From Sphingobium cloacae (lineage in GTDB: Bacteria; Pseudomonadota; Alphaproteobacteria; Sphingomonadales; Sphingomonadaceae), in contig NZ_AP017655.1 of the NCBI RefSeq assembly GCF_002355855.1, positions 2,385,501 to 2,449,500 of the forward strand: DNA of 64,000 nt. The letters are read 5' to 3'. The first letter of the stretch is position 1. Every line of letters begins with the position of its first letter. The notes beneath the pieces were generated by a model. That model ran no database searches, had not been told where the DNA came from, and saw only the letters and a program-made list of their open reading frames with translations. Shown here piece by piece: positions 26,654 through 33,049 of this stretch. The translations under genes and the position numbers were made by a program.

Positions 26654-27553
26654 CTATTCCGCCGCTCCGGCCCTCGCTCCCCAGGGGAGCCGCACCAGGA
26701 TCAGCGCGACCGCGATCGCCACCATCCCGAAAAGGTCGATCGCCCGCATGCCTTCGTCGAACAGCATCCATCCCAGCAGCGCCGACACGGCGGGCTGGAT
26801 CATCAGGCTCAGCCCCAGCACGAGCGGAGAGAACCAGCCGATGGCGTAGGTCAGCATCCCTTGGCCGATCAACTGGCTCGACAGCGCGAGCGCGACCAGC
26901 GGCGTCCAGTCGGTCGGCATGACCTTCTCCCCCATGCCGAGCGAGACCAGCAGCAGCGGCACCGCGCCGGACAGGCTGGAGACGGCCAGCACCGACCAGT
27001 TGTCGAGCCGCTGGCGCACGTCCTGCACGCTCACCAGATAGCCGGTATAGAGCAGCCCCGCGAGCAGGCAGAGCAGGTCGCCGCGCAGATAGCGGGGCGA
27101 CAGTTCATAGCTTCCCCCCATCAATATCCCGCCGCCTGCCAGCGCCAGCAGCAGCGCCAGAAGCTGCGGCCGGTGCATCGGCAGGCGCAGGACCAGCAAT
27201 CCCCATAGCGGCAGGGCGAGCGCGCTCACATTGCCGAAGATGGTGGAATTGGCGACCTTGGTATGGTGGATGCCCGCATGCCATGTCGCCAGATCGGCGG
27301 CGAAGAACAGGCCCGCCACGATCATCAGGCCCCATTGCCGCCGGTCCAGCGCCGCCGCCCGCAATTTCGGCAGCGCCAGCAGGAACAGGAAGGGAATGGC
27401 CAGCGCCAGCCGCCAGAAGGCCGCCGCGATCGGCCCCACATCGCTCAGCCGGACCAGAACCGGACCGACCGCCAGGAAAATATTCGCCAGGACGAGCGCG
27501 GGAAAGGCGATGACGGGTACAGGCTTTTGCGGGATGGGGATTGAACTCGCCAT
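26654..27553 (-). CDS. DMT-family (EamA) transporter
   Basis: Inner-membrane transporter of 299 residues with two EamA repeats and about ten transmembrane helices. The first repeat opens VIAFPALVLANIFLAVGPVLVRL and the second includes CLLAGLLYTGYLVSVQDVR. The drug/metabolite transporter superfamily usually exports amino acids, nucleotides or small metabolites; the substrate here is unknown. It is divergent from the old yellow enzyme gene by about 70 bases. Confidence 0.88.
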   Translation of the reverse strand: MASSIPIPQKPVPVIAFPALVLANIFLAVGPVLVRLSDVGPIAAAFWRLALAIPFLFLLALPKLRAAALDRRQWGLMIVAGLFFAADLATWHAGIHHTKVANSTIFGNVSALALPLWGLLVLRLPMHRPQLLALLLALAGGGILMGGSYELSPRYLRGDLLCLLAGLLYTGYLVSVQDVRQRLDNWSVLAVSSLSGAVPLLLVSLGMGEKVMPTDWTPLVALALSSQLIGQGMLTYAIGWFSPLVLGLSLMIQPAVSALLGWMLFDEGMRAIDLFGMVAIAVALILVRLPWGARAGAAE

Positions 27554-27622
27554 GGCGGCTCCCTAGCTGGCTCCGGGCGACATGTCTCGTTTCGAATTGA
27601 AACTTTCATGAAGGGAATATCT

Positions 27623-28705
27623 ATGCCGACCCTGTTCGACCCGATCCAGCTGGGCGCCATCGCCGCGTCCAACCGCATCCTGATGGCGCCGCTCACCCGC
27701 GCGCGGGCCACGCGCGATCATGTGCCCACGCCGATCATGGCGGACTATTACGCCCAGCGGGCCGGAGCGGGGCTGATCATCAGCGAGGCGACGGGCATTT
27801 CGCGGCAGGGGCTGGGCTGGCCCCATGCGCCGGGCCTCTGGACCGCCGCGCAGGTCGAGGCATGGAAGCCCGTGACGCAGGCCGTCCATGAGGCGGGCGG
27901 GCGGATCGTCGCCCAGCTCTGGCATATGGGTCGTCTCGTCCATTCCAGCATGGCGGGCGCGCAGCCCGTCTCCTCCAGTCCCGCCGCCGCGCCCGGCGAG
28001 GCCCACACCTATGAAGGCAAGCAGCCCTATGAAACGCCGCGCGCGTTGCGGATCGATGAAATCCCCGCCCTGCTGGACAGCTATGCGGCCGCTGCCCGCA
28101 ACGCCATCGCGGCCGGTTTCGACGGGGTGCAGATCCATGCTGCCAACGGCTATCTGATCGACCAGTTCCTCCGCGACGGCGTCAACCGGCGGGACGACGA
28201 TTATGGCGGCAGCGCGGAGAATCGCGTCCGCCTGCTGCGCGAGGTGACGGAAAGCGTCGCGGGCGCGATCGGCGCGGACCGCACCGCCGTCCGCCTCTCC
28301 CCCAATGGCGCGACGCAGGGCACGGACGACAGCGATCCGTCCAGCCTGTTCTCCGTCGCGGCGCAGGCGCTCGACCGGATCGGCATCGCCTTCCTCGAAC
28401 TGCGCGAACTCGGCGCGGGCGGCACTTTTGGCCGCAGCGACGTGCCGTGCCAGTCGCCGCTCATCCGCCGGCATTTCTCCGGTCCGCTGGTGCTCAACAG
28501 CGATTATGACGCCACGCGGGCGCAGGCCGATCTCGACAGCGGGCTGGCCGACGCGATCAGCTTCGGCCGTCCCTTCATCGCCAATCCCGACCTGCCGCTG
28601 CGCCTGCGCCGGGATGCCCCGCTCAACGACTGGGACGTGGCGACCTTCTACAGCGGCGGCGCGGAAGGCTATGTCGACTACCCCGCGCTGGAAGAGGCCG
28701 CTTAG
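27623..28705 (+). CDS. Alkene reductase, old yellow enzyme family
   Basis: FMN-dependent ene-reductase of about 360 residues that reduces activated C=C bonds (N-ethylmaleimide or xenobiotic reductase type) with NAD(P)H. The TIM barrel shows RILMAPLTRARAT at the N-terminus, QLWHMGRLVHS, the His/Asn substrate pair in IHAANGYLIDQFLRD and the FMN-binding GRPFIANPDLP near the C-terminus. I chose the ATG at 27623 with AAGGGA seven bases upstream, over the ATG at 27608. The physiological substrate is unknown. Confidence 0.93.
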   Translation: MPTLFDPIQLGAIAASNRILMAPLTRARATRDHVPTPIMADYYAQRAGAGLIISEATGISRQGLGWPHAPGLWTAAQVEAWKPVTQAVHEAGGRIVAQLWHMGRLVHSSMAGAQPVSSSPAAAPGEAHTYEGKQPYETPRALRIDEIPALLDSYAAAARNAIAAGFDGVQIHAANGYLIDQFLRDGVNRRDDDYGGSAENRVRLLREVTESVAGAIGADRTAVRLSPNGATQGTDDSDPSSLFSVAAQALDRIGIAFLELRELGAGGTFGRSDVPCQSPLIRRHFSGPLVLNSDYDATRAQADLDSGLADAISFGRPFIANPDLPLRLRRDAPLNDWDVATFYSGGAEGYVDYPALEEAA

Positions 28706-28843
28706 GGCCTGTCCTGATCGGAGGGACAGGAGCGCGCCATGCTCTCGCGCGGGCGGGAGCGCGGTTCCGCCCTCCGATCCGGGCCGAGGGCACGCCCCTC
28801 GGCTCGCCTCCATATTGTCGCGGGCGTGAGAATCCGGATTCGG

Positions 28844-29266
28844 TCAGCCTCCGAACTGCTCGCGCAGCCGGAGCATGGCGATGGCGGCCTTTGCCGCCTC
28901 GCCGCCCTTGTCCTTTTCGGTGCGGCGGGCGCGGGTCAGGGCCTGCGCCTCGTTCTCGACCGTCAGGATGCCGTTGCCGATGGCGATGCCGTCCATGCCG
29001 AGCGCCATCAGGCCGCGCGCGCTTTCGTTCGACACCACCTCGAAATGATAGGTTTCGCCGCGGATCACCACGCCGATCGCGACGAAGCCGTCATAGCGCC
29101 CGCTTTCCGCCGCCAGCGCGATCGCGCCGGGGATCTCCAGCGCGCCCGGCACGGTGACCACGTCATATTTATGCCCCGCTTCCTCCAGCGCGGCGCCCGC
29201 GCCTTCGATCAGCAGGTCGTTGAGATGGTCGTAGAAACGCGCTTCGACGATCAGGAACTTGGCCAT
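28844..29266 (-). CDS. ribH: 6,7-Dimethyl-8-ribityllumazine synthase
   Basis: Condenses the ribityl-pyrimidine with 3,4-dihydroxy-2-butanone 4-phosphate in riboflavin synthesis. The protein has 140 residues. Features are [30 protein letters not shown] with the phosphate site, and [16 protein letters not shown] containing the catalytic His. It is the last gene of the ribE-ribB-ribH cluster, 14 bases after ribB. Confidence 0.95.
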
Positions 29267-29280
29267 TCGCGATTTCCTTG

Positions 29281-30570
29281 TCAGAGGTCGATGGGCCGCT
29301 GGCCGACGACCGCCAGGTCATAGCCGTCCAGCGCGACGAGACTGTGGTTGCTGTTGGTGAGCAGGATCATGTCGTGCACGCCCAGCTCCGCCAGGATTTG
29401 CGCGCCCACGCCGTAATCGCGCAGTTCGTCGTCCATGTCGGGACGCGCCTTGCCCGCGTGGCGCTCCAGGAAGCGGGTGACGAATTCCGATGCGTTGCCC
29501 TGCATCGTCAGGACGACGATGATGCCCGCGCCCGCTTCGCCGACGATCTCCATCGATCGTGTCAGCAGATTGCCGCGCGGCCCGGTCGCGCCGTACACAT
29601 CGTCCAGGATCGACATCTGGTGCATCCGCACCAGCGTCGGCTGCTCGGGATCGACATGCCCCTTCTGCAACACCATCTGGTCGGTCTGGGTCGCCTTGTT
29701 ATAGAAGCTGATCGCCTTCCATTCGCCGCCCCATTGGCTGGCGAAGGTCGTTTCCGCGCGCCGTTCGACCATATGGTCGTGACGGCGGCGATAGGCGATC
29801 AGGTCGCGGATGGTGCCGATCTTCATCCCGTGCTTCCGCGCGAAGGGGATGAGGTCGTCGAGCCGCGCCATGGTGCCGTCGTCCTTCATCACCTCGCAGA
29901 TGACGCCGGAAGGATTGAGGCCCGCCAGCCGCGCCACGTCGACCGCCGCCTCGGTATGGCCGGTGCGCACCAGCACGCCGCCGTCCTTGGCGACCAGCGG
30001 GAAGACATGCCCCGGCGACACGATGTCCTCGCGCCCCTTCGACCCGTCGATCGCGACGGAGACGGTGCGGGCGCGGTCGGCGGCGCTGATGCCGGTAGTG
30101 ACGCCCTCGCGCGCCTCGATCGACACGGTGAAGGCGGTTTCGTGCCGCGTCCCGTTGTTGCGGCTCATGAGGTCGAGGCCCAGTTCGTCCACCCGGCTCT
30201 TGGTCAGCGCTAGGCAGATGAGGCCGCGCCCGTGGGTCGCCATGAAGTTGATCGCGTCGGGCGTCGCCATCTGCGCGGGGATGACCAGGTCGCCCTCATT
30301 CTCGCGGTCCTCGTCGTCGACCAGGATGAACATGCGGCCGTTGCGCGCTTCGTTGATGATCTCTTCGGGGCTGGCGAGCGCCGTGCCGCCCTCCCGCCGC
30401 AGCAGGTAGGATTCCAGCTTGCCCAGCGTTTCCGCGGTGGGGTTCCAGTCGGTTTCGCCCAGGCGGCGCAGGCTGTTGGCGTGCAGGCCGGCGGCGCGGG
30501 CGAGCCCCGAACGGGACATGCCCCCTTCGGTGACGAGCGAACGAAGCGAATCGATAAGGGCGACGGACAT
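29281..30570 (-). CDS. ribB: 3,4-Dihydroxy-2-butanone-4-phosphate synthase with N-terminal HTH and degenerate RibA domain
   Basis: Makes 3,4-dihydroxy-2-butanone 4-phosphate from ribulose 5-phosphate for riboflavin. Three parts are visible in 429 residues. Residues about 1-60 form a helix-turn-helix of XRE type ([21 protein letters not shown]). Residues about 70-265 are a complete DHBP synthase with the metal and substrate motif [12 protein letters not shown]. Residues about 270-429 align with GTP cyclohydrolase II, but its three zinc cysteines are gone: the HSEC-type motif reads HQMS (317-320) and RCDCG reads GPRGN (330-334). That domain is therefore probably inactive in GTP hydrolysis, and ribA must be elsewhere. 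The ATG at 30570 has AAGGAG 11 bases upstream; a second in-frame ATG is at 30603. Confidence 0.93.
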
Positions 30571-30605
30571 TTGTGAGGCGACTCCTTGTCCCGAAACGGA
30601 CATGG

Positions 30606-30656
30606 CATCACATTCACACTACAATGTGATTCATTGCAAGAGGAAATCACATTGTG
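30606..30656 (-). promoter_or_regulatory. Three AATCACATT-type half-sites upstream of ribB (possible operator)
   Basis: Half-sites lie at 30606-30615 (plus), 30621-30631 (minus) and 30645-30655 (plus). The last two form a perfect 11-bp inverted repeat, ACAATGTGATT and AATCACATTGT, with 13 bases between. The first two share an 8-bp perfect inverted repeat, ATCACATT and AATGTGAT, with eight bases between. A TTGCAA that could act as a -35 element (30634-30639) lies inside the cluster. The cluster overlaps the ribE stop codon and sits about 36-85 bases before the ribB start. Binding by the ribB HTH domain is inference. Confidence 0.6.
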
Positions 30657-31261
30657 CGCTGGCGCAGGCTCTGCATCCGGTCGAGATAGCGGGCCAGCAC
30701 GTCGATCTCCAGATTGAAGGCGCGCCCTTCGGGCAGCTCTTCCAGCGTCGTCGCCGCTGCCGTGTGCGGGATGATGTTCAACCCGAAATGCACCGATCCG
30801 TCCGGCTGGTCCTCCACGCCGTTCACGGTCAGCGAGATGCCGTCCACGGTGATCGACCCCTTGGCTGCGAGCGCGGGCGCAAGATCGGCGGGCGCGCGGA
30901 TGACGAGGCGGGTGGAATCGCCCTCCGCCGTCGCCGACGCCAATGTCCCCACGCCATCCACATGGCCTGTCACGATATGCCCGCCCAGCTCGTCCCCGAC
31001 CTTGAGCGCCCGTTCCAGATTGAGCTTGCCGCCCTGCCGCCACAGCCCCGGCGCGGTGTGCGCCACCGTTTCGGCGGACAGGTCGACGGCGAACCAGTCC
31101 GTCCCCTTCTCCACCACCGTCAGACAGGCCCCCGAACAGGCGATCGACGCCCCGATGGCCACGCCCTCCATGTCGTAACCGCACCCGATCACAAGCCGCA
31201 GGTCGCCGCGCTGCTCGCTGGAGCGGATGGTGCCGATGTCGGTGATGATGCCGGTGAACAT
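30647..31261 (-). CDS. ribE: Riboflavin synthase (alpha subunit)
   Basis: Dismutates two lumazine molecules to riboflavin. The protein has 204 residues with two tandem lumazine-binding beta-barrel repeats: MFTGIITDIGTIRS with SIACSGACLTVVEKG first, then GHIVTGHVDGVGTLAS with SITVDGISLTVNGVED. The family-typical Cys of the first repeat is present. It is the first gene of the minus-strand rib cluster. I found no FMN riboswitch in the 246-base upstream gap. Confidence 0.96.
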   Translation of the reverse strand: MFTGIITDIGTIRSSEQRGDLRLVIGCGYDMEGVAIGASIACSGACLTVVEKGTDWFAVDLSAETVAHTAPGLWRQGGKLNLERALKVGDELGGHIVTGHVDGVGTLASATAEGDSTRLVIRAPADLAPALAAKGSITVDGISLTVNGVEDQPDGSVHFGLNIIPHTAAATTLEELPEGRAFNLEIDVLARYLDRMQSLRQRTM

Positions 31262-31374
31262 GGAATGCTGGTCCTGAACGTCGAAAGCCGAAGATGCCGG
31301 ATGCGGCTTAGAACATCATGCGCCAAAGCGGAACCACCTGCGTACATGGTCTACTTTCGGGCAGTTGCGGACAT

Positions 31375-31420
31375 CCTTCCTCCGTTCGGGCTGAGCTTGT
31401 CGAAGCCAGTGCTGAACGAA
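31375..31420. repeat. Dispersed sphingomonad intergenic repeat, copy 1
   Basis: The stretch GGGCTGAGCTTGTCGAAG with flanking CGTTC is the short repeat found many times between genes in Sphingomonadales. A second, inverted and diverged copy lies at 37494-37545. The rest of the gap 31262-31507 holds no gene I can support. Confidence 0.55.
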
Positions 31421-31507
31421 CGAAGGCACGAAAGCAGGCCGTCCGCTCATCATCCAAAGCCGTCGTCGGCACAGACCGCATGCTTCCCTGTGCCCATCGC
31501 GACGCCC

Positions 31508-32044
31508 TTATTTCGCGTCCTTTTCCTCCTTGGGCTCCTTGGGCGGCGGCGGGGGGACGGTGGCGGTGATCTTGCAGCCCTTGCCGACCGCCAGCCCGCG
31601 CAGATAGCCGCGCCGCGCTATGCCGGCCGCGACCGCCGCTTGCAGACGCCGCTCGGCGGGGGCCGCGCCGCTGACCTCGCGCACCAGGCCGCGAAAGGGG
31701 ATCAGCGCGTTGACGATCGTCTTGCCGACCGCCTCGGCGATCTTGCCCGCGCGATTCTCATTTTCCTGCCGGTTCGCGATGAAATCCGCCCCCAATACGC
31801 CGTTCAGTTCGGTCATGTCGGCGTTCAGCGCCTTGCAGGTGCGCGAGGGCGGGGGCGCATAGGGGTTTTCCACCGCCCGTTGCAGCACTTCGGGAATCTT
31901 GTCCTTGTCGAGGCCCACATCGCGGACGGGCTGGGTGGCGATGCGGCCCGCCTTGTCCAGTGTCTCGTCCTTCTTCTCCTGCTCCTGCGCGAGGGCGGGG
32001 GCCGAAAGGATCAGGAACAGCGCGGTCGCGGCAATCATCTTCAT
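31508..32044 (-). CDS. Secreted hypothetical protein
   Basis: Protein of 178 residues with a clear signal peptide (MKMIAATALFLILSAPALA, cleavage before QEQEKK), so it is periplasmic. The mature part is helical with two cysteines (SRTCKALNADM and GKGCKITA) that may form a disulfide. It ends in a proline- and lysine-rich tail (PPPPPKEPKEEKDAK). No family recognised. The ATG at 32044 follows GGGAG; the frame is open further upstream without a signal peptide. Monocistronic. Confidence 0.8.
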   Translation of the reverse strand: MKMIAATALFLILSAPALAQEQEKKDETLDKAGRIATQPVRDVGLDKDKIPEVLQRAVENPYAPPPSRTCKALNADMTELNGVLGADFIANRQENENRAGKIAEAVGKTIVNALIPFRGLVREVSGAAPAERRLQAAVAAGIARRGYLRGLAVGKGCKITATVPPPPPKEPKEEKDAK

Positions 32045-32167
32045 CTGCTTATTCTCCCTGCCTTTCACAACCAGAAAGAGCGGAACCGGTTCCCTATCGA
32101 AACGAATAGCGCGGGCAGACAGGGGCGAGCGCAAGCCTTATGAACGCGGGCAGCATGGGAGGACAGG

Positions 32168-33049
32168 ATGAAGGAACAGTTGATCGGCATCGGTTCGGGC
32201 GGACTGCGCGCCGCCATTCATCCGCTGGGCGCGGAATTATGGTCGCTGACGGACGCGGACGGGCGGGAGTGGATGACGGATGCCGATCCGCGCTGGTGGA
32301 CCGGCCATGCGCCGCTGCTCTTTCCCTTTGTCGGGCGGTCGCGGGGCGATGCCTATCGGTGGGAAGGGCGGGAATACCCGATGCCGCAGCATGGCTTCGC
32401 GCGGCGCAGAGAGTTCGCGCTGGTCGAGCGGGCGGAGGACAGCGCCATCTTCCGGCTGGAGGCGGATGGGAAGACGCGGGCGGTCTATCCGTTCGATTTC
32501 CGGCTGGACATGGCGTTCGCGGTGGAGGGCGAGACGCTGCGCATGACCGCGACGGTGACGAACCGGGGAGAGGCGGACATGCCCTTTTCCTTCGGCTATC
32601 ATCCCGCCTTCGCCTGGCCGCTGCCCCATGGCGGGGCGGTGGAGGAACATCGCATCGTCTTCGAGAAGGGGGAACCCGCGCCGATCCGCAAGGTGGGGGA
32701 CGAGCCGGGGCTGATCGCGCGGGAGAGCGCGGCGTCGCCGGTGGACGGCGACACGCTCGCGCCGACTTATGCGATGTTCGAGGGCGACGCATTGATCTGG
32801 GACCGGCTGGAAAGCCGCAGCCTGACCTGGGGCGTGCCGGGGCACAGGCGGTTGAAGATCGGCTTTCCCGATACGCCGTGGCTCGGCCTCTGGCAGAAGC
32901 CGGGGGCGCATTATCTCTGCGTCGAGCCTTGGGCGGGGATGGCCGATCTGGTCGGCTTCACCGGCGATGTGTGGGAGAAGCAGGGGATCATGCGGCTGGC
33001 TCCCGGCGCGGCGCGCGGGTTCCGCATGGACGTGGCGCTGGTGGAGTAA
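32168..33049 (+). CDS. Aldose 1-epimerase family protein
   Basis: Galactose-mutarotase-like beta-sandwich protein of 293 residues. The family equilibrates alpha and beta anomers of hexoses, and the YeaD-like subgroup acts on hexose 6-phosphates. Family features are a substrate His in MPQHGFARRREF and a conserved stretch FSFGYHPAFAWPLP, with a late Glu in LCVEPWAGMADL acting as probable base. Which sugar is acted on cannot be told. It is followed by prfC on the same strand after 45 bases. Confidence 0.88.
   Translation: MKEQLIGIGSGGLRAAIHPLGAELWSLTDADGREWMTDADPRWWTGHAPLLFPFVGRSRGDAYRWEGREYPMPQHGFARRREFALVERAEDSAIFRLEADGKTRAVYPFDFRLDMAFAVEGETLRMTATVTNRGEADMPFSFGYHPAFAWPLPHGGAVEEHRIVFEKGEPAPIRKVGDEPGLIARESAASPVDGDTLAPTYAMFEGDALIWDRLESRSLTWGVPGHRRLKIGFPDTPWLGLWQKPGAHYLCVEPWAGMADLVGFTGDVWEKQGIMRLAPGAARGFRMDVALVE

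Follow-up and report, generated by a model that had tools for sequence, protein, structure and literature searches.

A DHBP synthase of Sphingobium cloacae carries an XRE-type domain and is a predicted autorepressor at a conserved palindrome before its own gene

HTH-RibB of Sphingobium cloacae is probably bifunctional, a DHBP synthase and in addition a dedicated predicted autorepressor acting at its own palindrome ATCACATTNNAATGTGAT. As a DNA-binding domain is fused to the enzyme and a conserved palindrome precedes its own gene, the enzyme probably controls its own production. Sequence comparison established the three-domain anatomy, the XRE homology, the conserved palindrome, the pairing of the palindrome with the domain and its near-exclusive location at ribB. 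The comparisons also support a conserved, nearly ribB-specific candidate target for the predicted DNA binding of HTH-RibB. The window, that is, the whole stretch of DNA analysed, comprises 64,000 nt of contig NZ_AP017655.1 (positions 2,385,501-2,449,500, forward strand).

Anatomy of HTH-RibB and its gene neighbourhood

The window protein (429 aa) consists of an XRE (Cro/C1) helix-turn-helix (HTH), followed by a complete DHBP synthase and a GTP-cyclohydrolase-II-like domain. Its gene is the second of three consecutive genes, ribE, HTH-ribB and ribH, on the minus strand:

30647..31261, minus strand: ribE, riboflavin synthase, the upstream neighbour (PF00677 Lum_binding)
29281..30570, minus strand: HTH-RibB coding sequence, 429 aa (440 aa from an in-frame ATG at 30603)
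30394..30546, minus strand: XRE-type HTH, residues 9-59, including the recognition helix (profile-profile match, conservation, Pfam, PHROG)
29791..30366, minus strand: DHBP synthase domain, residues 69-260 (PF00926 and TIGR00506)
29293..29763, minus strand: GTP-cyclohydrolase-II-like domain, residues 270-426, without the Cys motifs (PF00925, alignment to 4i14)
28844..29266, minus strand: ribH, lumazine synthase, the downstream neighbour, 14 nt behind ribB (PF00885)

An open frame of 440 aa spans 29281-30603 on the minus strand. The sequence AAGGAG is located 11 nt ahead of the ATG at 30570, and the motif MS..LI is the common start of the relatives and the 429-aa window protein; therefore, the ATG at 30570 is a likelier start than that at 30603.

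Profile-profile comparison of the N-terminal extension against 12 XRE domains of the same genome yielded 94.8% with a score of 38.8 over 51 columns, against a maximal score of 15.8 and 4.25% for 60 column-shuffled controls and 0.6% for the reversed control. The single window sequence, used as a 78-aa fragment, fell under the Pfam cut-off for every HTH family, with 16.0 bits for HTH_3 (cut-off 23), 15.6 for HTH_26 and 14.6 for HTH_31. Among 18 aligned members, HTH_3 and HTH_26 were each matched in 14 at E<=0.5 (best E 0.00055), and PHROG families named transcriptional regulator were matched with E values down to 2.1e-5. Searched against solved structures, the extension profile matched nothing above chance level, and no XRE protein reached E<0.01. 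In a set of 14 members, the others being 68-85% identical to the window protein, the residues A26, A27, G28, L29, H30, N32, L34 and R35, together with W42, N43, P44 and T45, are invariant. A chance HTH-like turn is ruled out by the profile comparison with its controls and by the conserved recognition helix; on these grounds the N-terminal extension of RibB is, by sequence, an XRE (Cro/C1) HTH.

The second domain scores 281.5 bits with PF00926 DHBP_synthase (cut-off 26.4) and 238.9 with TIGR00506 (cut-off 177.45). The residues RENEGD, H188 and E207, which we take to be the active-site set of DHBP synthase, are invariant or nearly so among 68 RibB sequences. By its full domain and these active-site residues, the window protein is identified as a DHBP synthase (RibB). 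An earlier note on this DNA had proposed an XRE-type HTH in front of a complete DHBP synthase, and both parts hold by the scores given here. The turn that it quoted is found in the window protein, and the recognition helix, on whose conservation it had staked its reading, lies within the invariant parts of the 14 members.

The third domain, which that description did not include, covers residues 270-426 with 109.1 bits for PF00925 GTP_cyclohydro2, while its TIGR00505 (ribA) score of 51.9 is far under the cut-off of 205.85. The Cys motifs of GTP cyclohydrolase II, presumably its metal site, were not found in residues 270-426 upon alignment to the RibBA chain 4i14, the SEC and CDC of which correspond to QMS and GPR in the window protein. 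As a RibA-like protein with the Cys motifs is encoded elsewhere in the window's genome, the degenerate domain is probably dispensable as an enzyme. In some genomes, a second RibB-like gene without HTH was observed besides the main one (L096 of G214, G039:C6 and G185:C9).

Distribution of the fusion and of the palindrome

The sample comprised 246 genomes of the window's order, 163 from the window's family (f1) and 83 from other families. HTH-RibB was found in 142 of the 163 f1 genomes; RibB without the HTH was found in 19, and no RibB match in two (G157 and G243). The protein searches cover the best 120 of 8000 scored candidates and hence are no census. Among the matches listed are 150 genomes, all f1; in 135 of them the alignment begins at query residue 20 or before, and in 15 only at residue 68-75. 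Beyond these 150, seven f1 genomes have the domain (G151, G191, G112, G137, G165, G206 and G212) and four have RibB without it (G053, G132, G201 and G241). Every RibB locus read from outside f1 was devoid of the HTH extension. A survey of the class gave RibB matches in 282 of 385 genomes, and outside f1 most alignments among the matches listed begin near residue 60. Among the 18 listed outside-f1 matches that start at residue 17-54, the 17 read lack the WNPT..TL motif of the extension, the 18th being G285. An extension common to alphaproteobacterial RibB is thus unsupported. Among 80 named loci, the domain is present in 12: those of Blastomonas, Novosphingobium (3), Sphingopyxis, Allopontixanthobacter, Porphyrobacter and Sphingomonas daechungensis, and four further Sphingomonadales or Sphingomonadaceae. 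It is absent from Sphingomonas lenta, S. jeddahensis, S. leidyi and a Rhizorhabdus MAG. The names of these loci and the Sphingobium names among the protein matches suggest that f1 corresponds to Sphingomonadaceae in the wide sense.

A palindrome, ATCACATT-NN-AATGTGAT, is located just upstream of nearly every HTH-ribB read. In the window, the region 30606-30656, which the earlier note had named as a fragment for gel shift, coincides with the candidate operator region:

30607..30614, minus strand: extra half-site AATGTGAT adjoining the core (window sequence alone)
30613..30630, no strand assigned: candidate operator core ATCACATTGTAGTGTGAA (minus-strand reading), two mismatches to ATCACATTNNAATGTGAT
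30645..30653, minus strand: upstream half-site AATGTGATT, overlapping the ribE stop codon (sequence, TGTGA of the relatives)

The site was scored as the best palindrome match in the 560 nt that precede the DHBP motif, in 103 loci with the domain and 147 without it, after seven duplicate loci were dropped. A site with at most four mismatches was found in 102 of the 103 loci with the domain versus one of the 147 without. The domain-bearing loci showed no mismatch in 17, one in 26, two in 34, three in 17, four in eight and five in one (L031), whereas the domain-less loci showed four in one and five to nine in 146. The 20 f1 loci without the domain have six to eight mismatches, which is the chance level. 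Shuffled upstream regions gave four mismatches in 17 of 1030 and more in all others. Over the 102 sites, each base of TCACA and TGTGA is 92-100% conserved. A further TGTGA is located within 32 nt upstream in 68 of the 102 loci (2.4 expected), and 55 of these 68 have it at 31 or 32 bp, that is, three helical turns. A riboflavin synthase motif was not found upstream in 21 of the 42 HTH-ribB loci examined, and 20 of these 21 kept the operator, L031 being the exception. A CRP-like site is ruled out, as the half-sites of TCACA-N6-TGTGA face the other way than those of the CRP consensus.

The start codon, chosen by rule, is located 11-12 nt past the core in 61 of the 102 loci, a hint that the leaders of the transcripts are short. 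The ribB mRNA may be close to leaderless in HTH-ribB loci such as L015 and L016. In the logo, the palindrome is flanked by a weak -35-like TTG (49, 66 and 40%) and a weak -10-like TA (74 and 78%), and would therefore fill the promoter spacer. When the window was scanned for consensus elements, no sigma-70-like site turned up near the operator on the strand of ribB; the single promoter-like match there was on the opposite strand.

The palindrome is a candidate for a specific operator at its target gene ribB, as judged by conservation. Near-exact sites, with at most one mismatch, occur in 78 of 242 genomes of the order, versus two of 242 for the reversed control pattern. By comparison of coordinates by hand, 75 of the 78 are located within about 100 bp upstream of an HTH-ribB match. 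The three exceptions away from ribB are G027, G063 and G025, of which G027 and G063 belong to another family than f1 and have the near-exact site without RibB beside it. With up to three mismatches allowed, the window's genome contains the ribB site (two mismatches) and one place inside a long open frame (three mismatches). Given this single intra-frame match and off-ribB sites in only three of the 78 genomes, a regulon of several genes is unsupported. The third exception, G025, has HTH-RibB with three mismatches at its own ribB site; its near-exact site (L302:1429-1446) is a second one, ahead of an 84-aa ORF and behind ribH and an aldo/keto-reductase-like frame.

The co-occurrence of domain and operator was followed on a quickly built tree of 69 RibB cores after removal of the extension, in which 24 of 66 inner branches are open and L292 was left out. 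Of the 39 tree rows that have the domain, 38 also have the operator, and all 30 domain-less rows lack it, an agreement of 68 of 69; the minimum number of state changes is nine for the domain and ten for the operator. Well-supported branches give only two independent pairs; both agree in most pairings, and they are too few for significance. In three of the four domain-less named f1 loci, the end of ribE is located 97-109 nt before the DHBP motif, at about the ribB start. As the operator and the HTH codons adjoin and ribE ends near the ribB start, a single deletion could remove domain and operator together. Co-loss carries less of the case than do the conservation of the site and its specificity.

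Proposed autorepression and alternative readings

We propose that the N-terminal XRE domain would bind ATCACATTNNAATGTGAT ahead of the gene that encodes it, and that the binding would repress ribB and probably ribH behind it. DHBP synthases are homodimers, and the enzyme dimer would present its two HTHs to the two half-sites of the palindrome. The site would lie over the promoter and the bound enzyme would block RNA polymerase, while the half-site three helical turns upstream may take part as well. In this way the enzyme would feed back negatively on a single target, in a family without a detected FMN riboswitch. Counted against autorepression are the lack of a sigma-70-like site on the ribB strand in the scan, the weakness of the promoter elements in the logo, the adjacency of domain and operator, the five mismatches of L031 and a 12-bp RNA hairpin described below.

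The repression might in addition be gated by a metabolite: if the DHBP synthase site held ribulose 5-phosphate, or the Cys-less domain a flavin, the dimer and its grip on the three-half-site operator would change. This extension is put forward tentatively, as the present data fit a ligand-gated switch and plain concentration-dependent autorepression alike. If the gated reading is true, the enzyme would sense its own pathway and replace the FMN riboswitch across the family, and the degenerate cyclohydrolase domain would gain a role as a sensor.

The best-surviving alternative, which we consider unlikely, is that another regulator uses the palindrome, while the HTH of RibB does something else, such as protein contact, or is a relic. 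Candidates are at hand, as the window's genome contains at least 29 other HTH_3 domains above the cut-off, and a joint loss of domain and operator is conceivable since they lie side by side. However, the site is found almost exclusively at HTH-ribB and is absent from loci without the domain, also inside f1, and the recognition helix belongs to the invariant parts of the protein.

It is also conceivable, with a lower probability still, that HTH-RibB binds the site and activates ribB with no repression, in which case the extra upstream half-site could seat a second dimer in an activating position. However, the most conserved part is located near the start codon, between the weak -35-like and -10-like elements, and an operator between -35 and -10 near the start codon is more usual for repressors. 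Least probable is an action of the repeats in the RNA between ribE and ribB, as an attenuator or as alternative hairpins. In its favour, a 12-bp hairpin (window 30571-30670, minus strand) can form from the upstream half-site and the left core arm, and 100 nt of the window strand fold with a z of -3.7. Against it, the upstream half-site occurs only in the 68 of 102 loci, the bases themselves and not pairing alone are fixed, 61 of the 102 loci have their start codon 11-12 nt past the core, the site persists where ribE was not found upstream, and the window gave no Rfam match in 27000-33000, around ribB, and no terminator-like site in a scan. Autorepression by HTH-RibB remains our preferred reading.

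Comparison with other enzymes that regulate genes

HTH-RibB combines an enzyme and a predicted DNA-binding domain in one chain, as in trigger enzymes. BirA, NadR and PutA are enzymes that also repress transcription, with known signals. Similar to HTH-RibB, they are biosynthetic or catabolic enzymes with a DNA-binding domain of their own, whereas the enzymes and the DNA-binding folds are other ones. RibBX, reported by Brutinel et al. in 2013, is said to be a RibB fused to a degenerate cyclohydrolase II; it resembles HTH-RibB in joining a DHBP synthase to a Cys-less cyclohydrolase-like part but is not known to carry an HTH. The FMN riboswitch (RF00050) likewise exerts feedback control on riboflavin genes, as an RNA regulator in contrast to the protein proposed here. 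Under strict filters, by which weak matches are lost, RF00050 was matched in 16 of the 246 genomes, and in none of the f1 genomes, the window's genome included.

The original paper on RbkR is reportedly that of Rodionova et al. in 2017. RbkR is an archaeal HTH-riboflavin kinase classed as a bifunctional gene regulator and enzyme (PMC8305020). RbkR is similar to HTH-RibB in carrying an N-terminal HTH on an enzyme of flavin metabolism, and differs in that its enzyme is an archaeal riboflavin kinase and not RibB, and in that HTH-RibB has almost one operator per genome. HTH-RibB is set apart from the known systems by its combination of this enzyme, the HTH and the single-operator layout. A search of open-licence PMC papers found no paper on an HTH-RibB fusion.

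The proposal gives a testable answer to the question of how riboflavin synthesis is controlled in a family without a detected FMN riboswitch. If it is true, DHBP synthase would join the few enzymes that carry a DNA-binding domain of their own. The candidate operator is a short, defined sequence with almost no second copies within a genome, and family members that naturally lack both domain and operator can serve as controls.

Two relatives of the HTH were observed outside RibB. In L104 (G013:C18:6526-6681), a short stand-alone ORF, a 94-aa frame, is 42% identical to residues 6-57 of the extension and adjoins replication- or plasmid-like frames. Its HTH had three relatives, with a Pfam domain in none, and the ORF is possibly a relative of the source of the HTH domain. 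In addition, a related HTH is fused ahead of a CoaBC-like protein (PF02441 and PF04127) in L105 / L294 (G034:C1) and L295 (G085:C294), two of 242 genomes among the matches listed. This HTH is 42% identical over residues 6-58, and the G085 protein aligns over residues 7-150 at 55%, while the G034 gene is located behind a ubiB-like frame. Upstream of these fusions no operator was recognised. The CoaBC-like fusion is possibly another cofactor enzyme with a DNA-binding domain.
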